Shown here: positions 16,749 through 58,481 of the stretch, in pieces
How the letters are laid out: every line of letters starts with the position of its first letter
Numbering within the stretch: position 1 is the first letter of the stretch
NCBI RefSeq assembly: GCF_013166655.1
Contig: NZ_JABKCA010000013.1
Coordinates: 1 to 64,000 of the forward strand
Source of the DNA: Lentimicrobium sp. L6
GTDB lineage: Bacteria; Bacteroidota; Bacteroidia; Bacteroidales; UBA12170
DNA: 64,000 nt
Direction: 5' to 3'
Made by a program: the position numbers and the translations under genes
The notes under the pieces: model-generated
Told to the model about the DNA's origin: nothing
The model's input: the letters and a program-made list of their open reading frames with translations, nothing else
Database searches by the model: none

Positions 16749-16766
16749 TTGTTATTCAAATAACAA
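16749..16766. promoter_or_regulatory. Rex-type operator 1 of the hydrogenase operon
   Basis: TTGTTATTCAAATAACAA is an 18-bp palindrome with the Rex layout (7-bp half-sites around 4 bases; known consensus about TTGTTAA-N4-TTAACAA). An identical copy lies 32 bp downstream (16781). Binding by Rex is inference; a rex gene is present at 41.8 kb. Confidence 0.7.
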
Positions 16767-16775
16767 TTGAAAATT

Positions 16776-16783
16776 TATATTTG
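16776..16783 (+). promoter_or_regulatory. -7 box of the hydrogenase operon
   Basis: TATATTTG, overlapping the first three bases of the second Rex-type operator. Repressor bound at either operator would cover the -33/-7 region. Confidence 0.6.
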
Positions 16784-16798
16784 TTATTCAAATAACAA
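16781..16798. promoter_or_regulatory. Rex-type operator 2 of the hydrogenase operon
   Basis: An exact repeat of the 18-bp palindrome at 16749-16766, offset by 32 bp (about three helical turns), so two dimers would sit on the same face of the DNA. It starts inside the -7 box and ends 19 bases before the ATG of the first hydrogenase gene. Confidence 0.7.
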
Positions 16799-16817: not shown

Positions 16818-17276
16818 ATGGCAGATACAGAAAAATTAGTTGAACAGTTGGTTTCAAAACATGGTAAGACTCGAAATAGTCTTTTACCCGTTTTGCAAGG
16901 CGTTGTTCAAGAAGAACATTTCCTATCGGACACTGCAATGATCGCAATTGCTAAGGCGTTAAATTTATCGTCGGCCGATGTTTACGGAACCGCTTCGTTT
17001 TATACATTCTTAGAAACGGAACCCCGTGGTGAAAATATCATCAGAGTGTGTAAAACCATTACTTGCAAAATGAAGGGCAAACAGCGAGTAATTGAGGCTA
17101 TTGAGAACCATTTAAAAATTAAGGAAGGTGAAACTAGTAGGAACAAGAAGTTTACACTCCTAGCCGCCAACTGTTTGGGTTGGTGCCACAAGGGTCCAGT
17201 GATGCTCGTCAATGACGATGTTTACCCTCACGTAGACCCAGATCAAATAGTTAATATTTTAGATAAATATTGCTAG
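16818..17276 (+). CDS. hydC: NADH-dependent [FeFe] hydrogenase, NuoE-like [2Fe-2S] subunit
   Basis: The 152-aa thioredoxin-like ferredoxin resembles NuoE and the small subunit of HydABC/Hnd hydrogenases. The four cluster cysteines are in RVCKTITC and ANCLGWC. The N-terminal helical part includes DVYGTASFYTFL, typical of the family. It passes electrons between the flavin subunit and the rest of the complex. I start it at the ATG at 16818; an upstream in-frame ATG (16767) would place the start inside the promoter and operators. It is the first gene of a three-gene operon. Confidence 0.88.
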   Translation: MADTEKLVEQLVSKHGKTRNSLLPVLQGVVQEEHFLSDTAMIAIAKALNLSSADVYGTASFYTFLETEPRGENIIRVCKTITCKMKGKQRVIEAIENHLKIKEGETSRNKKFTLLAANCLGWCHKGPVMLVNDDVYPHVDPDQIVNILDKYC

Positions 17277-17300
17277 TCATTAACCCCAAAAAAAATAAAA

Positions 17301-18467
17301 ATGGTATCAAAAAAATTACAAAGAGTCGATTTTATTTTTGATTGCGCGGGTTGTGAGCCCATTGAAGTGGTCAAAAAGGCATTGAAGATGACACGAGAAG
17401 AAGTGGTGTCTTCGATCATTGAGAGCGGATTGAAAGGTAGAGGAGGCGCAGGTTTCCCTACTGGTATGAAGTGGAAATTTGCAAAAGATGAGGTGGCAGA
17501 CACCAAGTATGTCATTTGTAATGCAGATGAAGGAGAACCAGGAACATTTAAGGATAGAGAAATCCTAGATGTGGTTCCTAATAAAGTATTATCAGGTATG
17601 GCCATTTGTGCTTATGCCATTGGTTCTAAAGAAGGAATCATCTACTTAAGAGGAGAATATAATTTCTTATTGAAAAAGCTTAATGCTCAAATAGATGAAT
17701 TTAACAATAGCTTGAGCAAAATAGGTTTAGATTTTGCAGTTAGTATTCGCTCTGGTAGCGGAGCTTATATCTGTGGTGAAGAAACCGCTCTTTTCGAATC
17801 TATGGAAGGAAGAAGAGGAGAGCCACGTAACAAGCCCCCATTTCCAACCAAATCTGGTTATAATGGAAAGCCTACCGTGATTAACAATGTTGAAACCTTA
17901 GTCTATACAGCCATGATTATAAATATGGGTGTGGATGAGTTTAAGGCAGTTGGAACAATGGATTCTAGAGGTAGTAAAGTATTCTCCGTATCTGGTGATA
18001 CACCCAAAGCTGGAATTCATGAACTAGAACTGGGATTAAATGTGGCCGATTTTGTAGAGGAATTCGGCGATGGAGACACTAAGGCTGTTCAAGTTGGAGG
18101 AGCCTCAGGTCATTGTGTCCCCCGTAAACTCTTCAAAGAAACCATTATTGGATTCGAAGGAATTCCAACAGGTGGATCTATGATGATTTTCAATTCAACC
18201 CGATCCATGTTTAATGTACTAAATGATTATCTAGAATTCTTTGCTGAAGAATCTTGTGGTCAGTGTACGCCATGCAGAATTGGAACCCAACAGTTGATCA
18301 AAGGAATTGAGCATGTGAAAAAAGGACAAATGCCATCAGAATACCTAGATCAACTTATCAAACTCACCGAAACCATGAAGATAGCTTCAAAATGTGGTTT
18401 GGGTCAGTCTGTGGCTAATTCGTTCTCATCAATAGTAACCAACTTCCGCGAGGAAATGATTTATTAA
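17301..18467 (+). CDS. hydB: NADH-dependent [FeFe] hydrogenase, compact NuoF-like flavin subunit
   Basis: This 388-aa subunit holds the NAD(H)- and FMN-binding core: GRGGAGFPTG (47-56), CNADEGEPGTFKDR (73-86) and the [4Fe-4S] ligands C319, C322, C325 and C365. Canonical HydB/HndC proteins of electron-bifurcating enzymes are about 600 aa, with an N-terminal [2Fe-2S] domain and a C-terminal 2x[4Fe-4S] domain; both are absent here. As I recall, lack of these extra clusters marks the non-bifurcating, NADH-dependent type. So simple NADH-linked H2 production or uptake is the better guess. It follows the NuoE-like gene by 24 bases. Confidence 0.88.
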   Translation: MVSKKLQRVDFIFDCAGCEPIEVVKKALKMTREEVVSSIIESGLKGRGGAGFPTGMKWKFAKDEVADTKYVICNADEGEPGTFKDREILDVVPNKVLSGMAICAYAIGSKEGIIYLRGEYNFLLKKLNAQIDEFNNSLSKIGLDFAVSIRSGSGAYICGEETALFESMEGRRGEPRNKPPFPTKSGYNGKPTVINNVETLVYTAMIINMGVDEFKAVGTMDSRGSKVFSVSGDTPKAGIHELELGLNVADFVEEFGDGDTKAVQVGGASGHCVPRKLFKETIIGFEGIPTGGSMMIFNSTRSMFNVLNDYLEFFAEESCGQCTPCRIGTQQLIKGIEHVKKGQMPSEYLDQLIKLTETMKIASKCGLGQSVANSFSSIVTNFREEMIY

Positions 18468-18488
18468 TCGCAAAACGAAAGGAAAATC

Positions 18489-20273
18489 ATGTCAAAAATT
18501 AAATTAACTATAGACGGCAAGAAGGTTCAAATAGAACAGGGTAAAACCATACTCGATGCTGCCAAAAAGATAAATGTAAAAATTCCAACCCTTTGCTATC
18601 ACGAAGATTTATGCGTGGCAGGTAACTGTCGTGTATGTGTGGTTGAAGTAGCTGGATCTAGAGCCCTTCAGGCTTCTTGTGCTATTCCAGCTCAAGATGG
18701 AATGGAGGTAAGGACAAATACCCCTAAGGTAAGAAACGCCCGTAAAGATATCATCGCTATGTTGGTATCGGAGCATAATACACAATGCACCACTTGTTAT
18801 AGAAGTACCAATTGTGAACTTCAAACCCTTTCGGCAGAATTTAATATTGATAATAATAGGTATCTAAGTATATTAAAGCCTAATATTGAAGTGGATAGGT
18901 CATCTTGGTCTATCGAGAAAGATGACAGTAAATGTGTACGTTGTCAACGTTGTGTAAGAACTTGTTCTGAATTACAACATGTGAATGCTCTAACGGTCAG
19001 CCATAAGGGAAAGGATATGAAAATTAGTACTTTCCACGATCTGCCATTAAAAGATGTGGTCTGTACCAACTGTGGGCAGTGTGTAAACCGCTGTCCCACT
19101 GGAGCACTCACCGAAAGACGTTATTTCGATGAAGTATGGGAGGCTATCGGAGATCCTACCAAACACGTAGTGATGAATACAGCACCTTCTGTGCGTGTAG
19201 CCCTTGGCGAAATGTTGGGTTACCCTGTTGGTACTCGTGTAACAGGTAAAATGGTTACTGCCATGCGTCGTTTGGGAGTAGATTCCGTTTTGGATACTGA
19301 TTTCTCTGCGGATTTAACGATTATTGAGGAGGGCACCGAATTATTAGTCCGCCTGAAGAAAGCTTTGGTAGACAAAGATGATACCATTAAACTTCCTTTA
19401 TTAACATCTTGTAGTCCTGGTTGGGTGAAGTTCTGTGAACATTTATATCCAGAACATTTAGGCCATCTTTCTACTTGCAAGTCACCTCAACAGATGTTCG
19501 GAGCCTTAACAAAGACATATTACGCCGATAAAAAAGGTATTGATCCTAAAGACATCGTAAGTGTTGCTATTATGCCTTGTGCTGCTAAGAAATTCGAAGC
19601 CAATCGAGGTGAAATGAAAGACAGTGGATTCCAAGACATTGATGCAGGTTTAACAACCCGTGAACTAGGCCATATGATCAAGCAAACAGGCTTAAACTTC
19701 CTTGAATTAGAAGAGTCTTCCTATGACAGTATCATGGGAGAGTCTACTGGTGCAGGAGTCATCTTTGGAGCCACAGGAGGAGTGATGGAAGCTGCTTTAC
19801 GAACAGCATACGAGATAGTAACAGGCAAAGAAGTACCTTTCGAAAATTTGAATATCATACCGGTCAGAGGTATGGAAGGCATTAAAGAAGCAGCTATAAA
19901 AATTGAAGGAGCGCTTCCCGAATGGTCATTCCTTGAAGGAGTAGAAATGAAAGTTGCTGTAGCCCATGGCTTAATTAATGCAAGAATCATTATGGATCAA
20001 ATTGCAGCTGGTGAATCGCCATATCACTTTATCGAGGTGATGGCATGCCCTGGTGGATGTATTGGAGGAGGAGGGCAGCCTATTCCTACCAATGAGGCTA
20101 TTAGAAAAGCAAGAGTAGCTGCCATTTATGAAGAGGATATGAATATGAACCTTAGAAAGTCGCACGATAATCCCGCCATAAAAACCATATATAAGGACTT
20201 CTTGAAAGAGCCACTGAGTCATGTATCACACAATCTCTTACATACCACTTATAGAAAGCGCCAACATTATTAG
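18489..20273 (+). CDS. hydA: [FeFe] hydrogenase catalytic subunit
   Basis: A 594-aa M3-type catalytic subunit. In order: plant-type [2Fe-2S] domain (C36, C47, C50, C64), His-Cys3 [4Fe-4S] site (H96, C100, C103, C109), two [4Fe-4S] clusters (C149-C159 and C192-C202), then the H-cluster domain with L1 TSCSPGW (306-312), L2 MPCAAKKFE (362-370) and L3 MACPGGCIGGGGQP (518-531), and the small-subunit-like tail. L1 reads Cys-Ser rather than the textbook Cys-Cys. It lies 21 bases after the flavin subunit gene and should combine protons with electrons from NADH, cytosolically. The maturases HydEFG are not in this window. Confidence 0.95.
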   Translation: MSKIKLTIDGKKVQIEQGKTILDAAKKINVKIPTLCYHEDLCVAGNCRVCVVEVAGSRALQASCAIPAQDGMEVRTNTPKVRNARKDIIAMLVSEHNTQCTTCYRSTNCELQTLSAEFNIDNNRYLSILKPNIEVDRSSWSIEKDDSKCVRCQRCVRTCSELQHVNALTVSHKGKDMKISTFHDLPLKDVVCTNCGQCVNRCPTGALTERRYFDEVWEAIGDPTKHVVMNTAPSVRVALGEMLGYPVGTRVTGKMVTAMRRLGVDSVLDTDFSADLTIIEEGTELLVRLKKALVDKDDTIKLPLLTSCSPGWVKFCEHLYPEHLGHLSTCKSPQQMFGALTKTYYADKKGIDPKDIVSVAIMPCAAKKFEANRGEMKDSGFQDIDAGLTTRELGHMIKQTGLNFLELEESSYDSIMGESTGAGVIFGATGGVMEAALRTAYEIVTGKEVPFENLNIIPVRGMEGIKEAAIKIEGALPEWSFLEGVEMKVAVAHGLINARIIMDQIAAGESPYHFIEVMACPGGCIGGGGQPIPTNEAIRKARVAAIYEEDMNMNLRKSHDNPAIKTIYKDFLKEPLSHVSHNLLHTTYRKRQHY

Positions 20274-38203: not shown

Positions 38204-39394
38204 CTAGATAAACTTCACACTCCCACCCTTTAAAAACTTCTGATCAAGAAGACGAGCTATCCTTTTGGCCACGGTTCTTCTAATTTCTAATTCAACTGGC
38301 AGTGTTGGATCCTGGTGAGCGATATTAATCTTCGTACCAACGAGAATATGTATTTCATCACTACGGATAAACATCTTCACCATTTTGTCAGCTGGGCCAT
38401 CACCCAAATCCTGATCACTGGTATAGTTTTTAAGGATGTTGGCCACTTTGCTCAGAGTTAAAATTCCTTCTGTAACTAAATCGATTCCATCCATGTGTGA
38501 TTCTGGCGGTAAATCGGGGTCGTCAAAATCTAGACTATCCACTATCTTCACACCGAATTCCCTAGCAATAATATCAGCGGTGGTTCCACCTGCAACAACC
38601 TTTCTTCCTGGAAAACTCCTCACTATTTCTGCTAATTCCTTGTCCGATGATTTCCTAATGGGAGGTCCAGTACTGAGTAGTAGTTTTCTGGGTTCTCTAA
38701 AATAAATACAGGCCGTACTGGTATCATCTTTGGAATGATAGAGATCGTTCTGAAAAGCTTTGTTAACAGTAAGTACTGACAGCTTACGAGCCGAAATAAT
38801 TGGATTCTTTGCTATTTTATCACGAACAAATTTCACCGCATCACTTACTCCCCATCCAAAAGGATACCTTTCGCTACCTAAACCTGACTGAGCAATTCCA
38901 TCTGACCAAAACAATATTCTGTCTTCTTTTTGAGGTTCAAATGATGTATAGAGTAATTCTTTCTTGTTCTTCCCCTCCTCTAGAAGAAGACATTGCCACC
39001 CTGGATCAAATATTTCACTTCCTCTAAAGATGGTGCATTGTGGATTATCATATTCTAAAATAGAAACCCGCCCACCTATTTCAATATCGATAATAGTAAA
39101 GGTGGAATAACTAATTTGTCGAACACTACAAACAGGAAGTGTCTTCATAATAATTTCGGCAATCTTGGTTGGTTCTTTATGCTCTTTGGCAAAATTAACC
39201 GCCATAGTAGCCGTAAGAGTAGCCAGCATATTTGCTTTGACTCCATGCCCCATTCCATCAGATAATACGCAGATGATTCTATTCTCTTGTTCTATTTTTT
39301 TACTCACAAAAACATCTCCACAAATACGCTCACCTTCGTGATTGATTTGCTGGCAATTGACATCAATATGAATACTATTTTCCAGATTATTCAT
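38204..39394 (-). CDS. SpoIIE-type PP2C serine phosphatase of the hydrogen-sensing module
   Basis: A 396-aa protein whose first 230 residues form a SpoIIE/PPM phosphatase domain. The metal-binding aspartates are visible in ICGDVF, VLSDGMGHG, LFWSDGI and SKDDTST. The remaining 160 residues form a separate domain starting LLLSTGPPIRKSSD, with a glycine-rich VAGGTTADIIA; I have no assignment for it. The gene overlaps the end of the sensory hydrogenase gene by 8 bases, so the two are translationally coupled. It most likely dephosphorylates an unidentified partner in response to the hydrogenase domain. Confidence 0.85.
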   Translation of the reverse strand: MNNLENSIHIDVNCQQINHEGERICGDVFVSKKIEQENRIICVLSDGMGHGVKANMLATLTATMAVNFAKEHKEPTKIAEIIMKTLPVCSVRQISYSTFTIIDIEIGGRVSILEYDNPQCTIFRGSEIFDPGWQCLLLEEGKNKKELLYTSFEPQKEDRILFWSDGIAQSGLGSERYPFGWGVSDAVKFVRDKIAKNPIISARKLSVLTVNKAFQNDLYHSKDDTSTACIYFREPRKLLLSTGPPIRKSSDKELAEIVRSFPGRKVVAGGTTADIIAREFGVKIVDSLDFDDPDLPPESHMDGIDLVTEGILTLSKVANILKNYTSDQDLGDGPADKMVKMFIRSDEIHILVGTKINIAHQDPTLPVELEIRRTVAKRIARLLDQKFLKGGSVKFI

Positions 39395-41285
39395 TTAGTT
39401 TACTGATGTTAAATTGTGTTTCTTGACTTGGGGCTTGCTTATAGGTTTGCAAAATTGAGTTGAGCATCTGTTCGGTTTCTGCAGCACCCTCTCCCAATAA
39501 GAATCCTATTTTTTGTACCATTTCCAGATTTTTATCAATGACTTCAGTAACACGCTCCATAACTTGTTCTTTCTGAATTTCAGGCTGTTGCATATTCCTT
39601 AATACCGCTCCAACTATTTCTTTTTCCTTAATAGAGAAGAAAGAAGCAGTATAAATTTCATCATTCAAATGAATATCTCTATTGATAATATTATCACTAG
39701 AGTTCAACACAAAATTGAAAAGCTTTTGAACATTGAATGGAATAAAGCTCTTAAGATCGGCACCCACCAAACCTGGTATTACTTCTGCTATGTCTTTAGC
39801 ATCAGTTCCCAACAAATCGATTAGGCCTTTATTGGCCTGAATAATTTTTAACTTTTTATCAACAATAACTATGGCTGATGGCAATTCCTGAAGCATAGAG
39901 TGCGTAATTTGATGAGCTTCTTCCATGGCTAGTTTATCAGCATGAGCTTCTCTTTTACTGGTTTCTAATTGGGCTTTGGTTTCTTCCATTTTTTGATTGG
40001 CTTTACTCAATTCCATTATGGTTTGCTTATTCTTACGGAAAGTATAGGTAAAACACATGTCTGGTTCAGCCAAACCTTTACTAATAGCAATTGAAAATTC
40101 AGTGCAATTTTTATATCCACAAGCGCCACAACCATTTTCACTATGGTCGTTATTTTTACCGATAGTCCCTAATATATTATCAACCTCCTCGCTTGAAGGT
40201 GTGGCTATCCTTTGATCGTTAAGCTCAAAACTGGCAGAAAAATCTATTTTTCCATAAGACTGCATTGCTTTTTCCCAACTCTTTTGATCAAAGTCTTTTC
40301 TGCGTTTTTTGGCAAACTCTACTATTTTATTTTGCTTCACAAACTTACTTGTAGTTTTCTTGATTCCAGGACCAGAAATACAACCGTTGCAATAAAAGAT
40401 ATTTAAATGCTTTTTGATTTCAGTGACATCGTTATTAAAGTTTGAAAGTGAATTTACAAAATCCACATGACCTTCACAGGTAATGACTTTGGAATCCATT
40501 AAGTCTTCCGATTTCTCCATAATCTGGAGCAACCCATTACTTATAGGATACAAGTATCCTTTGTTGGCAATAGGTCCATCAAACTCAGCATAACTCAAAT
40601 TCTTCTCCACTAAACCTGACTCGTCGATCATTTTACGCAATTCCTCAAAAGTTAGAACAGCATCAATTTTTACTTGGTCGGCATATCTCTTGGCCTCCTC
40701 TTTAGCAGCTATACATGGACCTACGTATATAATTCTACAAGCATCACCATATTCTTTTTTTAACACCTTCGCCATGGCTACCCATGGCGAAACTATTGGA
40801 GCAAGGTTGTTAATTAATTCGGGCTGAAATTTCTCCACATTGGACACTACCACTGGACAATTGCTAGTCAAGTAATATTTCCCACGTGATTTTTTAAATA
40901 GTTCGTTATATTCTTTAGCAATTAGATCAGCTCCAAGTGCTACCTCATATACTTTGTTAAAACCAAGTTGATGAAGCATTTGAGCAAACTTCCTATAGTC
41001 AGTGATATCAGGGAATTCAGCTGCTACACTAGGCGCCAAAAGAGCGATAACGGCTTCTTTGCTTTTTAAGGATTCCTTGGTTTCTTTTTCACTACTTTTA
41101 TATTCAACAGCATCATAAGGACAAACCTCATAACAAGCCCCACAACCTACACATCTATCATTAATAATTTGAATAGGGGGATCTTCTTGGGAGGATACTG
41201 CAATAGCTTTTACTGGACAATTTCTTACGCATGCATAGCATAAAACACATTTTTCAATGTTGATTTTCATCAAATAGTCATCCAT
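39387..41285 (-). CDS. Putative sensory [FeFe] hydrogenase with PAS domain (HydS/HsfB type)
   Basis: 632 aa. In order: 2x[4Fe-4S] ferredoxin (C13-C23, C45-C55); an [FeFe] hydrogenase-like domain with L1 TSNCP (140-144), L2 VGPC (C191) and L3 YCNGCISGPG (C299, C302); a four-Cys [4Fe-4S] domain (C386, C389, C394, C411); a coiled coil (415-460); a PAS domain (465-565). All four H-cluster cysteine ligands are kept, but the proton-relay Cys next to C143 is Asn142, as expected for sensors rather than catalysts. With the coupled phosphatase it fits the phosphatase-linked sensory hydrogenases (HydDB group C). Sensing H2 is inference. Confidence 0.88.
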   Translation of the reverse strand: MDDYLMKINIEKCVLCYACVRNCPVKAIAVSSQEDPPIQIINDRCVGCGACYEVCPYDAVEYKSSEKETKESLKSKEAVIALLAPSVAAEFPDITDYRKFAQMLHQLGFNKVYEVALGADLIAKEYNELFKKSRGKYYLTSNCPVVVSNVEKFQPELINNLAPIVSPWVAMAKVLKKEYGDACRIIYVGPCIAAKEEAKRYADQVKIDAVLTFEELRKMIDESGLVEKNLSYAEFDGPIANKGYLYPISNGLLQIMEKSEDLMDSKVITCEGHVDFVNSLSNFNNDVTEIKKHLNIFYCNGCISGPGIKKTTSKFVKQNKIVEFAKKRRKDFDQKSWEKAMQSYGKIDFSASFELNDQRIATPSSEEVDNILGTIGKNNDHSENGCGACGYKNCTEFSIAISKGLAEPDMCFTYTFRKNKQTIMELSKANQKMEETKAQLETSKREAHADKLAMEEAHQITHSMLQELPSAIVIVDKKLKIIQANKGLIDLLGTDAKDIAEVIPGLVGADLKSFIPFNVQKLFNFVLNSSDNIINRDIHLNDEIYTASFFSIKEKEIVGAVLRNMQQPEIQKEQVMERVTEVIDKNLEMVQKIGFLLGEGAAETEQMLNSILQTYKQAPSQETQFNISKLNE

Positions 41286-41298
41286 AGTTTATGAGTTT

Positions 41299-41556
41299 TT
41301 AATAGATTCGAAATATGCTAAAAAATTGATCTAGATAAGTTTCCACATTATCAGCATTTACCTGATGAAACATCTTATCATCTATCATGAGATTGGGGCC
41401 TTTGCCGCATTTGTCGAAGCAGCGGTTGCCTCGAAATAATACCTTGTCTTCAATATCATTCTTAACCAAATACTCTTTTATCTTTTGCAAGGTGGCTTTG
41501 TTGCCTCTGGCAAAACACGAACTTCCCATGCAAATACTAATCTCATGTTTTTTCAT
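41299..41556 (-). CDS. Thioredoxin-like [2Fe-2S] ferredoxin of the sensory operon
   Basis: An 85-aa stand-alone NuoE-type ferredoxin domain. Four cysteines in ICMGSSCFARG and NRCFDKCGKGP are the expected cluster ligands. It begins a three-gene operon, with the sensory hydrogenase gene 13 bases downstream, and is the likely electron partner of that protein. A -7 box TATTTTTG (41653-41646, minus strand) joined to a Rex-type half-site lies about 90 bases upstream. Confidence 0.88.
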   Translation of the reverse strand: MKKHEISICMGSSCFARGNKATLQKIKEYLVKNDIEDKVLFRGNRCFDKCGKGPNLMIDDKMFHQVNADNVETYLDQFFSIFRIY

Positions 41557-41757: not shown

Positions 41758-41775
41758 GTGTTCAATAAATAACAA
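41758..41775. promoter_or_regulatory. Rex-type operator upstream of rex
   Basis: GTGTTCAATAAATAACAA: the right half ATAACAA is identical to that of the hydrogenase operators and the left half GTGTTCA keeps the core TGTT. It covers the -33 region of the rex promoter, whose -7 box TAACTTTG is at 41783-41790. This suggests self-control of rex. Confidence 0.5.
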
Positions 41776-41848
41776 AATTGATTAACTTTGTTTGCGAAAT
41801 AACAGGCTTTGCGAAAGAACATCAACTCCATAGCCAACTTGAAACTAC

Positions 41849-42484
41849 ATGAATATGAACACATTGCCAGATAAGACAGTAGAGAGATTAAGTCAATACC
41901 GTAGAAACTTATTGATTTGTAAGGGAAAAGGAAAGACTCATATTTTTTCTCATGAAATAGCTAATATTCACCATATTACTCCAGTACAAGTTCGTCGTGA
42001 TATTATGTTAATTGGATATACAGGTACTTTGAGAAAGGGATATAATGTTGAAGAGTTGGTGACTTTAATAGGAGAAATTCTTGACAAACAAGAAGGACAG
42101 AATGTTGCCATTATTGGTGCGGGAAATCTAGGTCGTGCTATAATGAAATATTTTCACGATAGAAGAGACAAGTTAAGCATAGCTGCTGCTTTCGATACCA
42201 ATAAAGATAAAGTAGGAACAGAATTTGACGGTATCCCTATTTATCATATCGATGAAATGAATCGTGTGATTAAAGAAAAGAATATCTCCATTGGAATTGT
42301 GTCAGTCCCACTTGAAGTAGCTGAAGAAACCTCTAAAGCTCTAGTAGAATCAGGAGTCCAAGGAATTTTGAATTATACGCCTCGCCCTATGAATGTTCCA
42401 GCTCACGTATACTTGGAGGAATATGATATGATTACTTCTCTTGAGAAAGTAGCATATTTTGCCAAAATGAAGAATAAAAAGTAG
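41849..42484 (+). CDS. rex: Redox-sensing transcriptional repressor Rex
   Basis: A 211-aa Rex protein: winged-helix DNA-binding domain (residues 1-80; TVERLSQYRRNLL, ITPVQVRRDIMLIGYTGTLRKGYNV) and a Rossmann NADH-binding domain (NVAIIGAGNLGRAI near 90-103, then AAFDTNKDKVG). Rex is released from DNA when NADH rises relative to NAD+, and it controls fermentation and hydrogenase genes in many anaerobes. It is divergent from the sensory hydrogenase operon, and matching operators lie before the catalytic hydrogenase operon in this window. Confidence 0.95.
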   Translation: MNMNTLPDKTVERLSQYRRNLLICKGKGKTHIFSHEIANIHHITPVQVRRDIMLIGYTGTLRKGYNVEELVTLIGEILDKQEGQNVAIIGAGNLGRAIMKYFHDRRDKLSIAAAFDTNKDKVGTEFDGIPIYHIDEMNRVIKEKNISIGIVSVPLEVAEETSKALVESGVQGILNYTPRPMNVPAHVYLEEYDMITSLEKVAYFAKMKNKK

Positions 42485-42485
42485 A

Positions 42486-43055
42486 TTATTTAGCTGATAG
42501 TAAGATAACGGCAGGCATAATTTGTTCTAAATAATTCATCTCCCGAATCATTGATTTTATTGAAATAGTTGCTCCCGATATTCCATCGATATTTTTACCG
42601 TACCTATAGGTTTCTTTCTGGTGTTTTACGAATTGCTTTAACCACCATTTACTCGTTATCTCATAACCATGCTCAGATTGATAATCTAGAATTTTCAAGT
42701 CCAATAACTCAGCTTCAGAACTATAAAAGCTATAGACCCAAAATTGCTCAAACTCCTCGTCCACTTCATGCTCCACATCGCAACCTCCAACTTTACAACC
42801 ATTGGCAATAGTAATCACCATATAACCTCCTCTAGTTTTTAAAGTATTTTCTACCTGATAGAAGTAGCTATTGGTTTTAGTCAAAATACTATCGTGAACA
42901 GCGATTGTTTTCTTATTGAAACTTTCCTTTTCAAAATATTTAACGAGGTTTCTGTTGATTCTTTTTTCTATTCCATGATTAAAACCCACTCCCGACCGAA
43001 ATATTTCGGTGATGGGAGTGAGCATTATAATGAATATGAAAATCTTATATATCAT
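42486..43055 (-). CDS. Exported FMN-binding domain protein
   Basis: A 189-aa protein with an N-terminal hydrophobic segment (IYKIFIFIIMLTPITEIF) and a C-terminal FMN_bind domain (RnfG/NqrC type). The covalent flavin attachment motif is DGISGATISIKS, where the second Ser or Thr of the SGAT-type sequence would carry FMN added by ApbE. The segment VGGCDVEH before it has a Cys pair motif CKVGGC. Located outside the inner membrane, it may pass electrons. Its upstream partner gene is a porin, 44 bases before it on the same strand. Confidence 0.78.
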   Translation of the reverse strand: MIYKIFIFIIMLTPITEIFRSGVGFNHGIEKRINRNLVKYFEKESFNKKTIAVHDSILTKTNSYFYQVENTLKTRGGYMVITIANGCKVGGCDVEHEVDEEFEQFWVYSFYSSEAELLDLKILDYQSEHGYEITSKWWLKQFVKHQKETYRYGKNIDGISGATISIKSMIREMNYLEQIMPAVILLSAK

Positions 43056-43099: not shown

Positions 43100-44272
43100 T
43101 TAAAATACGAAACCAAGACCGGCATTGAATGCGTGGTCATACTTTGATTGTGCAGCTGTTTTAATCCATTGATAATCTATTTTTAAAACAACACCAGAGT
43201 TGATTTTCCAATTGAGACCACTGGTAATCAATTGAGTTTCGAAACTCTTATTAGGTTCAAATCCAACAGTCTCGTGGTGTGTATTGATAAACTCGTATCT
43301 TACAAATGGGATAAGTTCTGATTTAAACTTTGTAGTTTTGAAAACATTATATCCAGCTTCAGCATAATATCCAAACATTTGTTGTCCTAAATCAGAACCA
43401 CCAAAGTCATTATATTGATCTACATTTCCATTATTTACGAAAACCAATTGTCCGCGTAATTGTATTCCTTCAATTCTATAGGTAGCATCTACTCCAAACA
43501 TAGCTATATCAACAATTGAACTGTCAGCTTGCTGTTGTAATTGAGGATCGTTATCCGGTAAACCATCAAATAGATTAGATTGTGATTTCCCAAGATAAGT
43601 AGCCAAACCAAGTTTCAAACGAGGAATTCCGTAATAATCGATTTTAGCAGAAAGATTTGGACTGCTAGCTATTGATTCTGCACCTTTCTGACGTCCTTTT
43701 CTAAATCCATCAGAACCTCTAAATTTTGCCTGATCGTCATAACCCAAGAACCCATTCACCATGTATAATTGGTATTTTAAGGAGATTTCCTGAATATTAC
43801 CATGAATTCCTAAACCAATTTCTCTCCAAGTAGTAGGAACTATTTTTTTATCTAATAAAGGACGTTCTACTCCAAAATATACTGTAGGTTCATGAAGTTC
43901 ATTTATAATTCCCATTGGAATGAGCATCAATCCTCCTTTAACTTGAAAATAGTTGTTGAATTTATAATTTAAAAAAGCTTGTTCCACATATACCTCTTTC
44001 ACATGTTCTAATTCAATTTCGGTAAACAACTGTAATTTTTCAGTGAAATTATAACCAAATAATAATACCAAACGATGAACATCCAATGTTCCATTATTGC
44101 TTTGGTCTTTTATTAAAGGTTGATTATAATCTATCTGTCCGTAACCCCCAATTATTAATTTTTGGTCTCTTATATCCATGAGCCTATCAGCAGAATTCAT
44201 CTCTAGCTGACTTTCTTGCGCCCATAATCCTAAGCTCCCCAATAATAGAATAACAGTAATTAATTTTCTCAT
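43100..44272 (-). CDS. Outer-membrane porin (OprO/OprP-like)
   Basis: The 390-aa product has a signal peptide (MRKLITVILLLGSLGLWAQ) and beta-barrel strands to the end, closing with GLGFVF (terminal Phe). The segments GGYGQIDYNQP, FTEIELEHVKEVYVEQAFLNYKF and the glycine- and aromatic-rich turns resemble phosphate-selective porins O/P. Solute specificity cannot be told. It is followed by an FMN-binding protein gene, which suggests a joint role at the cell surface or in anion or electron acceptor uptake. Confidence 0.78.
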   Translation of the reverse strand: MRKLITVILLLGSLGLWAQESQLEMNSADRLMDIRDQKLIIGGYGQIDYNQPLIKDQSNNGTLDVHRLVLLFGYNFTEKLQLFTEIELEHVKEVYVEQAFLNYKFNNYFQVKGGLMLIPMGIINELHEPTVYFGVERPLLDKKIVPTTWREIGLGIHGNIQEISLKYQLYMVNGFLGYDDQAKFRGSDGFRKGRQKGAESIASSPNLSAKIDYYGIPRLKLGLATYLGKSQSNLFDGLPDNDPQLQQQADSSIVDIAMFGVDATYRIEGIQLRGQLVFVNNGNVDQYNDFGGSDLGQQMFGYYAEAGYNVFKTTKFKSELIPFVRYEFINTHHETVGFEPNKSFETQLITSGLNWKINSGVVLKIDYQWIKTAAQSKYDHAFNAGLGFVF

Positions 44273-56470: not shown

Positions 56471-56726
56471 GGGTACTAAACAATTAAAAGAAATTACATA
56501 ATTCGTAATTTTAACAAAAAGGAGCTATGGAGAAGATTTATTCATTGAGTTCCCCTATTTTCCGTTCTGCCAGTTCAATCAAAGAATGATTTCGAAAGCA
56601 TCTCTAGCTCATATTATAGCAGAATGATACCGATTGATGATATTATCCATACTAATTCCCTTTTATCTTTTGGCTTAATAAAAGATTATAATACTTTTGT
56701 TATTGCACTAACAAACACATTCCATC

Positions 56727-58481
56727 ATGAAAAAATTAATCCTATTTTTTTCCATACTATTATTTACCACGGTGGTATTAGCTCAACAAGTTGACAAGCA
56801 GGAAGCCATAAAGGTTGGGAAGGTATTTTTAAACAATACTAAAAGCAATATTTATAGTTTGAAGGACTATGAAACTTGTTCATATAAAGGTGGGATTCTT
56901 TACCATATCGTAAATCTTTCACCTGCTGGTTATGCCTTGGTATCCAATGATAAAGATTTTGCTCCTATACTTGCTTATTCTTTACATGGCAAATATGAAA
57001 AGAATAATAACAATCCCTTGCATCAATTAATCTGTGCTGATTTTGAAAAGAGAGCTGCTTCTGAAGGGCTTTATCTTTCGAAATATAAAGATGAAAACAA
57101 TAAAAGTTGGGCTGTATTATTGTCTGGAAAATCAAATAATAAAAGTAGTTTATCATGGCCTGAATTAGGAACTACATCCACCGAAGGTTGGGTAGAAGCA
57201 CAATGGTCGCAATCTGCACCCTATAATGCTGCATGTCCCATGGATCCAATAGACAATGCGAGAAGCATAGCAGGCTGTCCTTCCATCACCATGGCTCAGA
57301 TATTAGATTTTCATAAAACCATCAATGAAAAGATATTTTCTGATGAAGATGATTATTTTCACAATTATAGTGGAAGACAATATGATATAGATGATGATTT
57401 CGAAGAACTGGATTTCCCTTCTTTCCCCGAATTAAACACGAATTTAAATAGTCTTCAAAATAGTTATTCAGTAGGGATTAATCCTTCTAATCTTGAAATA
57501 GCAAATCTTGTATTTGCATGTGGTGTAGCTTGTACTCAGGTTTATTCTTCCTCAGCATCTGGAACTTTCGGAGTAAATCAAGCAGCAGATGCATATGGTT
57601 CTTTTAATTGTTCCAACTCCGAATTACTATATCCAAATATGGAGAATCTTTATGAGAGGATGGCATTTAATATGCGTCATGCCTTACCGATTCATCTAGC
57701 AGTGGTAAATGACGCTATGACTGTGGGACACAATGTAGTTCTTGATGGATGGAATGAGGATAATTTTTACCACGTTAATTTTGGATGGGGTGGTTCTTAC
57801 GATTCTTGGTATCATATTCCTGATGATTTACCCTATGAACTTACCGTTATTGAAGGCGTTGTTCTCGATATTTTGTTAGAGAATATGCAAAACACAGCTC
57901 CATTTTCTTCTGATATCATTATAACGTGCAATGAAAATGTTGAAATAGACATAGTGGCAGAAACATTCATAAATGCTTATTCTGATGCTGAACTCGATAC
58001 CATAATGAAGATTAAAATCACCGAACTACCTAGTTTTGGAGTGCTTGATTATAATGGTAGTCTTGTTATTATAGGGCAAGAAATTGACTTTTCCAGCTTC
58101 AGTCAAATGACATATTCCTCTAATTCAAATCCTGCTGTGGATGACCATTTTAAGTTTCAAGTATATGATGGTTTTGAGTATTCTGAAGAAGCAACATTTC
58201 AAACCCTTTTTGATATAACAGCTTTGGGAGAAGATAAAAGTAATCTTGATTTTGAATTATTTCCAATCCCTTGTAGCAATGAGCTTAGCATTAGTTTTGA
58301 AAGAAATTCTGAGCAATCTGTCATTAAAATCTATAGTATTGTTGGAGAAGAACAGTTGAGGGTTTCAACAAGGGAACAGCAGGTTATTCTACAATTAAAT
58401 GGTTTTTCAGATGGTATTTATTTTGTTGAAATTGAGCAGAATAATGAATCGCTGACAAAAAAAATAATTGTCAAAAAGTAG
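56727..58481 (+). CDS. Secreted C10 (streptopain-like) cysteine protease with T9SS sorting domain
   Basis: 584 aa. In order: signal peptide (LILFFSILLFTTVVLAQ); Spi-like inhibitory propeptide (about 21-140, SPAGYALVSNDKDFAPILAYS); C10 peptidase domain (about 150-390) with catalytic C184 in SIAGCPSITMAQIL and H335 in TVGHNVVLDGW, then the family WGG (NFGWGG); a linker; and a type A T9SS sorting domain ending DGIYFVEIEQNNESLTKKII. It is activated by removal of the propeptide and degrades proteins outside the cell. The upstream salvage of hydroxyproline and proline peptides may share this role. Confidence 0.92.
   Translation: MKKLILFFSILLFTTVVLAQQVDKQEAIKVGKVFLNNTKSNIYSLKDYETCSYKGGILYHIVNLSPAGYALVSNDKDFAPILAYSLHGKYEKNNNNPLHQLICADFEKRAASEGLYLSKYKDENNKSWAVLLSGKSNNKSSLSWPELGTTSTEGWVEAQWSQSAPYNAACPMDPIDNARSIAGCPSITMAQILDFHKTINEKIFSDEDDYFHNYSGRQYDIDDDFEELDFPSFPELNTNLNSLQNSYSVGINPSNLEIANLVFACGVACTQVYSSSASGTFGVNQAADAYGSFNCSNSELLYPNMENLYERMAFNMRHALPIHLAVVNDAMTVGHNVVLDGWNEDNFYHVNFGWGGSYDSWYHIPDDLPYELTVIEGVVLDILLENMQNTAPFSSDIIITCNENVEIDIVAETFINAYSDAELDTIMKIKITELPSFGVLDYNGSLVIIGQEIDFSSFSQMTYSSNSNPAVDDHFKFQVYDGFEYSEEATFQTLFDITALGEDKSNLDFELFPIPCSNELSISFERNSEQSVIKIYSIVGEEQLRVSTREQQVILQLNGFSDGIYFVEIEQNNESLTKKIIVKK

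Follow-up and report, generated by a model that had tools for sequence, protein, structure and literature searches.

An HfsABC-like sensor-phosphatase module of Lentimicrobium sp. L6, from a clade of hydrogenase-derived sensors with repeated loss of H-cluster ligands

What do the PAS-containing "sensory" [FeFe] hydrogenases sense? H2 has been assumed from the fold, and the question is raised by a three-gene operon in the window (i.e., the whole stretch of 64,000 nucleotides analysed here), which the original prediction had named a hydrogen-sensing module. The three genes are real and all the sequence statements made about them hold, including the gap of 13 bases between the ferredoxin and sensor genes and the overlap of 8 bases between the sensor and phosphatase genes. 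The module is laid out as follows:

41299..41556, minus strand: ferredoxin gene, the first of the module (85 aa, thioredoxin-like [2Fe-2S], HfsA-like; PF01257, E 3.8e-10)
39387..41285, minus strand: sensor gene (632 aa, HydS/HfsB-like, [FeFe]-hydrogenase-derived; PF02906 at 146.7 bits, Fer4, FeS, weak PAS, and clade placement)
41121..41249, minus strand: two N-terminal [4Fe-4S] ferredoxin sites of the sensor (residues 13-55, 8 Cys)
40368..41054, minus strand: hydrogenase (H) domain (match to PF02906, Fe_hyd_lg_C)
40854..40868, minus strand: loop L1, TSNCP, residues 140-144 (Asn142 in place of the proton-relay Cys; ligand C143)
40713..40724, minus strand: loop L2, VGPC (ligand C191; Gly189 at the Met353 position)
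40380..40397, minus strand: loop L3, FYCNGC (ligands C299 and C302 as CxxC, canonically CxxxC; Phe297 at the Met497 position)
40053..40130, minus strand: C-terminal [4Fe-4S] motif Cx2Cx4Cx16C, residues 386-411 (PF04060, FeS)
39420..40052, minus strand: linker, PAS-like domain (about 458-566; PAS_8, E 6e-4) and conserved C-terminal helix (567-622)
38204..39394, minus strand: phosphatase gene (396 aa, SpoIIE/RsbU-type PP2C)
38690..39394, minus strand: SpoIIE/RsbU-type PP2C catalytic domain, residues 1-235 (PF07228)
38207..38689, minus strand: C-terminal phosphatase domain, alpha/beta and conserved (residues 236-396; pLDDT about 90; no Pfam family)

In general terms, the module is not new in kind, since it matches HfsA-HfsB-HfsC of Thermoanaerobacterium, where HfsB is a putatively sensory PAS-containing group C [FeFe] hydrogenase and HfsC a serine phosphatase (PMC5707799, PMC11837493). 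The small Fe-S protein, the PAS-hydrogenase and the PP2C phosphatase form one operon in the window, in the same order as in HfsABCD of T. saccharolyticum and T. thermosaccharolyticum (PMC5707799, PMC11837493); unlike the latter, the window operon lacks an hfsD hydrogenase and diverges from rex, and in its sensor L3 is of the CxxC type and L1 has Asn. Left out of the original prediction was a second, canonical copy of the module, which lies elsewhere in the same genome (locus L007) as a full hfsABCD-like operon; hfsD itself is missing from many canonical modules. In the cultivable relatives Marinifilum, Labilibaculum and Ancylomarina the two copies stand in tandem. When hfsA or hfsB is deleted, ethanol yield and adhE expression go up, an effect that needs hfsC and hfsD (PMC5707799); since both hfsB and hfsC have been deleted in Thermoanaerobacterium (PMC5707799, PMC11837493), the description of such systems as little studied was only partly right. 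The triad occurs at about 90 loci across one Bacteroidota order, and comparison of the window genes with the nearest relative gives a dN of 0.03-0.05, far under a saturated dS of about 1.5-1.9; the arrangement is therefore not due to chance, and the three genes are under strong purifying selection. Its adjacency to hydABC and/or rex is kept across phyla, and the ferredoxin cysteine pattern is kept in relatives, including those whose sensor is missing the H-cluster site.

As in group C (M2f)/HfsB proteins, the H domain of the sensor carries two N-terminal [4Fe-4S] ferredoxin sites and is followed by a C-terminal Cx2Cx4Cx16C cluster (C386, C389, C394 and C411) and then by a PAS domain, which is weak (20.0 bits for PAS_8, under the Pfam cut-off of 21.8), its region being 37-39% identical to that of canonical HydS. 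The proposed group C-like sensory architecture is thus supported, down to the exact C-terminal motif, and the four Cys of H-cluster type are present (C143, C191, C299 and C302). What had been overlooked is that the L3 loop is one residue short, with CxxC from C299 to C302, whereas the CxxxC spacing is found in 87/87 canonical HydS. CxxC is also found in histidine-kinase-fused sensors of the same phylum, 33 of 37 of which keep every ligand, so that the window sensor is better called a group C/HfsB variant than a typical member. TSNCP was read correctly; the loss of the proton-relay Cys, to Asn142, is real, although it is no evidence alone, because Cys stands at that position in only 17% of group C sequences in published alignments (PMC10055695) and Asn is the commonest residue in the clade (65/115). 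A chimeric origin, in which PAS and PP2C would be canonical and the H domain taken from the sensors fused to histidine kinases, is suggested by domain identities and the PP2C tree, and is not claimed, the alternative not being rejected (log-likelihood difference 19, AU p 0.10).

TmHydS of Thermotoga maritima, a putative sensory hydrogenase of group C/M2f, has by its published description the same two N-terminal [4Fe-4S] sites, H domain, C-terminal [4Fe-4S] cluster, PAS and replaced relay Cys, with Ala instead of Asn at the relay position and Ser instead of Phe at the Met497 position (PMC10055695). TamHydS, a putative sensory hydrogenase of group D, has the C-terminal Cx2Cx4Cx16C cluster in common with the window sensor (PMC8163306, PMC13104023) but lacks a PAS; a separate locus of the same genome (L008) encodes a TamHydS-like protein together with an RsbW-like kinase. 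Nar1 can be likened by description, as a [FeFe]-hydrogenase-like fold that persists without hydrogenase function, although its proposed role is in Fe-S assembly and not in signalling (PMC12621388).

At least one H-cluster ligand is missing in 34/115 clade sensors, as opposed to 0/87 canonical ones, and on a tree built without the H-cluster loops these absences correspond to at least six separate changes. Nine clade sensors have lost three or all four ligands and still have the C-terminal and N-terminal Fe-S sites, next to ferredoxins and PP2C catalytic residues that are intact. Lost H2 metabolism is ruled out as the cause, given that all nine genomes encode HydG above the cut-off and other hydrogenase-family proteins; ligand loss was not cleanly linked to the state of HydA in the neighbourhood. 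Across the 115 sequences the accessory Fe-S cysteines hardly vary: the C-terminal motif has all four Cys in 114, and the N-terminal sites vary only at C16, which is Ser in 29. This repeated loss with the module kept means that H2 sensing by an H-cluster cannot be the function of the whole clade, and the name "hydrogen-sensing module" is weakened accordingly; with the rest of the switch intact, H2 itself may not be the signal. Judged from these sequences, H2-specific chemistry appears dispensable in the Bacteroidota clade. In the window genus, by comparison, the four H-site ligands are intact in four species, up to about 31% sequence difference, which suggests that the H site is still selected there and that these proteins may be true H2 sensors; the window sensor would be an intermediate, with an altered loop at the H site and probably with a cluster still bound there.

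A divergent rex, not mentioned in the original prediction, lies upstream of the module, and further hydrogen genes are found in the window:

41849..42484, plus strand: rex, a transcriptional repressor that responds to NADH/NAD+; gene divergent from the module (199.5 bits against NCBIfam Rex, cut-off 126)
41758-41775 and 41788-41805, unstranded: two imperfect Rex-like sites between rex and the module (10/12 positions each)
16749..16798, unstranded: two perfect palindromes TTGTTATTCAAATAACAA, before hydE-hydB-hydA (hydE start 16818)
16818..20273, plus strand: hydE-hydB-hydA, an NADH-linked group A-type [FeFe] hydrogenase operon

The same divergent position of rex is found in three other members of the genus, and hydEBA, which adjoins or diverges from the module in many relatives, is likely the physiological neighbour of the sensor. 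Apart from the two palindromes before hydEBA, the genome of 5.14 Mb contains no exact match to TTGTTATTnnAATAACAA. Perfect Rex-like palindromes of the form TTGTTAnnnnnnTAACAA number 10 genome-wide, against 2 for a control pattern, with two before hydEBA, one before a second hydABC cluster and one before hydG; the enrichment is limited to this perfect form, since for the strict 18-base palindrome, with two mismatches at most, there is none genome-wide (29 vs 25). Between rex and the module the TTGTTAnnnnnnTAACAA operator is present in imperfect form only (10/12), and each site is weak alone (40 of 500 shuffles were as good), while the stretch 41758..41805 is identical in the nearest relative. 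A Rex-type site has also been predicted ahead of the Thermoanaerobacterium hfs operon (PMC5886521). Such operators would tie the hydrogenase and maturase genes to Rex control.

The presumed output side of the module is the phosphatase, whose pairing with the sensor, as originally proposed, is supported and is a known kind of bacterial redox switch. The SpoIIE domain scores 35.6 bits in Pfam (PF07228, cut-off 25), the metal-binding acidic residues D27, D46, D165, D223 and D224 are conserved, and the predicted model (pLDDT 90.6) has the PP2C fold (3pu9, Z 25.1, rmsd 2.9 over 219 residues; SpoIIE 5ucg, Z 23.1). The catalytic fold and metal-binding aspartates are those of the SpoIIE, RsbU and RsbX phosphatases (PDB 5ucg, 3ke6, 3w40), with two differences: the presumed regulator is a hydrogenase-derived protein, and the 161-residue C-terminal domain lies outside those matches. 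These 161 residues match no Pfam family, as had been noted, and the structure prediction proposed for them gives an alpha/beta domain; the latter was seen attached to this PP2C family only. Foldseek returned nothing for it at E <= 0.001, and its best VIA-align matches (Z 9.9 to 8.0) are weak and Rossmann-like, to formylmethanofuran dehydrogenase and NuoG-type proteins, so a Rossmann-like fold may be taken as a lead from the model. The PP2C with this domain was detected without the sensor in three related genomes, and in both sensor-less neighbourhoods examined (G070 and G065) a PAS-only protein precedes it, which points to PAS plus PP2C as the core unit. As for possible partners, RsbW-like kinase partners, DRTGG proteins and STAS proteins are the first candidates; four STAS matches were found elsewhere in the genome and none in the module. 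At L076, L238, L242 and L244 the phosphatase and an RsbW-like kinase are close by and in the same direction; a common operon is not claimed, other genes or about 1 kb lying between them where checked.

How might these elements work together? One proposal, which we hold to be evenly poised between right and wrong, is an HfsABC-like (HydS-SpoIIE) switch that gauges how reduced the fermenting cell is and adjusts the phosphorylation state of a partner. Where the H-cluster still works, electrons from H2 would reach the Fe-S clusters of the sensor through the hydrogenase-type site; otherwise the companion [2Fe-2S] protein or the ferredoxin pool would supply them. The signal would then pass from the C-terminal [4Fe-4S] domain through the coiled coil and the PAS to the co-encoded PP2C, which would dephosphorylate a Ser/Thr target, the expression of the surrounding hydrogen genes being under Rex (NADH/NAD+) control. 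We infer the point of electron entry, the sensor-phosphatase interaction, the target and the direction of control, and the path from ferredoxin to sensor and the contact between sensor and phosphatase are guesses from gene order. H2 does not reduce the C-terminal cluster of the group D protein TamHydS (PMC13104023), a result that speaks against signalling through the redox state of that cluster. As to the input, "H2 or redox state" was a hedge of the right width, H2 alone being weakened by the ligand losses.

The clade may, a little less probably than an even chance, have turned from sensing H2 to sensing redox state independently of H2, with the fold, accessory Fe-S clusters, PAS and phosphatase retained under selection, the H site repeatedly lost and the maturase kept, and with the window copy as an intermediate whose site is altered and possibly free of the diiron part. 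Alternatively, the window copy could be a true H2 sensor with a complete H-cluster, reporting through the PAS to the phosphatase as is assumed for canonical group C, the ligand-less relatives being secondary derivatives. We regard this as a tentative possibility, favoured by the four ligands in the window copy and in three congeners, by the ligand-keeping CxxC sensors fused to histidine kinases, by the presence of HydG in the genome and by TmHydS, which is functional with an Ala in place of the relay Cys (PMC10055695); the CxxC loop, Asn142 and Phe297 close to the active site speak against it, as do the losses in the clade, and no spectroscopy of a CxxC H-cluster was found in the literature covered.

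It is improbable that the hydrogenase domain is a mere structural scaffold or dimerisation element, with the signal bound by the PAS or sensed by the C-terminal domain of the phosphatase. Although PAS plus PP2C does occur without an adjoining hydrogenase domain, and the C-terminal domain is conserved at least as much as the catalytic one, with a conserved loop around N357-HQDP modelled at low confidence, which might suit a binding loop, loss of the accessory Fe-S cysteines is very rare, which indicates selection for a redox role of the Fe-S part. A catalytic sensor (e.g., a slow ferredoxin- or NAD-linked hydrogenase) shares its fold with the hydrogenases and would fit the nearby hydABC, and is nonetheless very improbable in view of the PAS domain, the pairing with a PP2C, the persistence of relatives without any H-cluster ligand and the regulatory look of the hfsB deletion phenotypes (PMC5707799). 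Least credible is decay of the window copy as a duplicate of the canonical one: the canonical paralogue exists and the H loops have drifted, but the frame is open, a dN of 0.05 against a dS of about 1.9 to the nearest relative already contradicts decay and rules out a pseudogene, and the separate clade is conserved across many families.

Returning to the reading as a redox switch with a dispensable H site, homology of the group C type alone is a poor ground for annotating H2 sensing, because many such proteins across a Bacteroidota order cannot build a standard H-cluster. Sensors that range from intact to lacking three or all four ligands, within the same operon and in hosts that metabolise H2, form a natural series by which it can readily be tested whether signalling needs H2 binding. 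The conserved C-terminal domain of the phosphatase, in turn, gives a further way towards finding the target of hfs, a system that affects the ethanol yield of biofuel strains.

The original prediction had read three coupled genes, with a 13-base gap between ferredoxin and sensor and an 8-base overlap between sensor and phosphatase, as a hydrogen-sensing operon; the observation is confirmed in full, while the interpretation is supported only in part. The module and its neighbours in the window are the following:

41299-41556, minus strand: thioredoxin-like [2Fe-2S] ferredoxin
39387-41285, minus strand: hydrogenase-like sensor
38204-39394, minus strand: SpoIIE-type PP2C phosphatase
41849-42484, divergent, upstream of the module: Rex repressor gene
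16818-20273, same window: hydE-hydB-hydA hydrogenase operon

Genes for an FMN-binding RnfG-like protein (42486-43055) and a porin-like protein (43100-44272), both on the minus strand, adjoin rex, as they do in the compared locus L062. The group A-type HydA of the window (18489-20273, plus strand) carries TSCSP at 19404-19418, i.e., Ser at the usual H-cluster ligand position (the second Cys of TSCCP), and SCSP is shared by HydA of L078, L213, L238, L242 and L244, as well as by one HydA from Desulfobulbus (L134).

The sensor comprises two [4Fe-4S] sites at its N-terminus, the H domain, a [4Fe-4S] motif in the C-terminal part whose Cx2Cx4Cx16C spacing is also that reported for TamHydS (PMC8163306), a linker resembling a coiled coil, and a region that matches PAS weakly. 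Its loops read TSNCP (L1), VGPC (L2) and FYCNGC (L3), so that the four H-cluster Cys and the TSNCP described earlier are indeed present, although the L3 spacing is CxxC instead of the CxxxC of canonical enzymes. Even so, the module is a variant of an already known kind. Among six PF02906 proteins in the genome, one lies in a complete hfsABCD-like operon (L007) encoding a ferredoxin, a HydS with SSCCP and CxxxC, a PP2C that shares the C-terminal domain of the window phosphatase, and a short hydrogenase. In a scan of named genomes, canonical HydS-PP2C modules appeared in Bacteroidota, Cloacimonadota, Spirochaetota, Planctomycetota, Myxococcota, Desulfobulbus, Riflebacteria and others, frequently ordered hydE-hydB-hydA-ferredoxin-HydS-PP2C; many are preceded by a rex-like gene. 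Thermoanaerobacterium strains lacking hfsA or hfsB show increased ethanol yield and adhE expression, an effect that depends on hfsC and hfsD (PMC5707799), and HfsC has been described as serine phosphatase-like (PMC11837493).

In a tree computed without the H loops, the window sensor groups with about 115 relatives from its order in a single clade (SH-aLRT 100). Most of these loci have the order ferredoxin-sensor-PP2C and either adjoin or diverge from hydEBA, a sensor fused to a histidine kinase (a second type, likewise CxxC) or rex. Marinifilum, Labilibaculum and Ancylomarina carry a canonical and a window-type sensor-PP2C pair in tandem, and in the PP2C tree the window type is nested inside the Bacteroidota canonical phosphatases, beside these Marinifilaceae partners. 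HydA-like proteins divergent from window-type modules (L071, L191, L193, L195, L197, L200, L203, L205, L210, L214, L232 and others) often have the proton-relay Cys replaced by Asp, Ser, Arg, His or Asn, with ligands kept, and in some the conserved Met or Lys is missing from L2; these proteins may be slow or repurposed hydrogenases.

The AlphaFold2 model of the phosphatase (pLDDT 90.6) has a catalytic domain resembling PP2C structures (3pu9, Z 25.1; SpoIIE 5ucg, Z 23.1), and its C-terminal 161 residues, for which structure prediction had been proposed, form a confident alpha/beta domain. Across about 190 sequences, conservation of at least 95% is reached at 34 positions of this domain, compared with 32 of the catalytic part, although the latter is larger. 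When 247 genomes from the phylum were searched, the domain turned up exclusively in open frames as long as a PP2C. In two genomes (G070, G065), the gene preceding the phosphatase encodes a 168-aa protein consisting of PAS only, and no hydrogenase gene lies close by; the core of the system is therefore PAS plus PP2C, to which the hydrogenase part contributes one input. Elsewhere in the genome, a stressosome-like row (L292, contig C16, 1699-6491; two STAS proteins, an RsbT-like kinase, a kinase-PP2C fusion and a hybrid histidine kinase) is a possible source of phosphatase targets, unlinked to the module. A second NADH-linked hydABC cluster with adjoining genes (L008, contig C5, 5753-9508 and 10675-14798) neighbours a TamHydS-like (group D) protein, an RsbW-like ATPase, two DRTGG-like proteins and a PHP protein; comparable clusters are found close to a window-type module in L076, L238, L242 and L244.

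Regarding transcription, TTGTTATTCAAATAACAA stands twice in perfect form ahead of hydE. The form TTGTTAnnnnnnTAACAA, identical to the Rex consensus applied in Thermoanaerobacterium (PMC5886521), occurs perfectly 10 times in 5.14 Mb (2 for a control pattern); these sites include the two before hydE, one before the second hydABC cluster and one before hydG. Another perfect copy, at 56697-56714, lies 12 bases ahead of a gene for a secreted cysteine-peptidase-like protein (56727-58481), which is an odd location for a Rex-type site. The rex/module intergenic region has only two imperfect Rex-like sites, identical, together with the stretch between them, in the nearest relative; divergent promoters of related loci match at least 13 of 16 positions in 44 of 67 cases (shuffled best-site mean near 10.7). 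Judging from these sequences, Rex might bind the candidate sites.

For an operon whose domains, conservation, ligand losses and retained phosphatase were established computationally, electrons would enter the sensor from H2 or ferredoxin, the PAS domain would relay the signal, and the phosphatase, under sensor-side control, would act on a Ser/Thr-phosphorylated protein. The C-terminal cluster of TamHydS gave no response to H2 (PMC13104023), which counts against a simple redox reading.

All four ligands are retained in four species of the window's genus, and therefore a cluster at the H site is probably still made there. Across the clade, one or more ligands are missing from 34 of 115 sensors (in 24 only a ligand in L3, in four the L2 ligand as well, in six all of them), which requires at least six changes on the tree; no canonical sensor has such a loss (0/87), and 33 of 37 kinase-fused sensors are intact. 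Of the 12 accessory Fe-S Cys, 11 are retained by no fewer than 114 of the 115 sensors, the exception being C16 (Ser in 29), and compared sister pairs indicate purifying selection on the sensor gene, as far as saturated dS permits. The nine genomes that have lost three or all four ligands have intact PP2C metal-site residues and ferredoxins, keep HydG above the curated cut-off, and carry further PF02906 proteins, above 310 bits in eight and, in the ninth (G646), with a best match of 228 bits at a contig edge. The main interest for specialists is that sensors of this clade have repeatedly lost their H-cluster site while the module and the H2 metabolism of the host persist.
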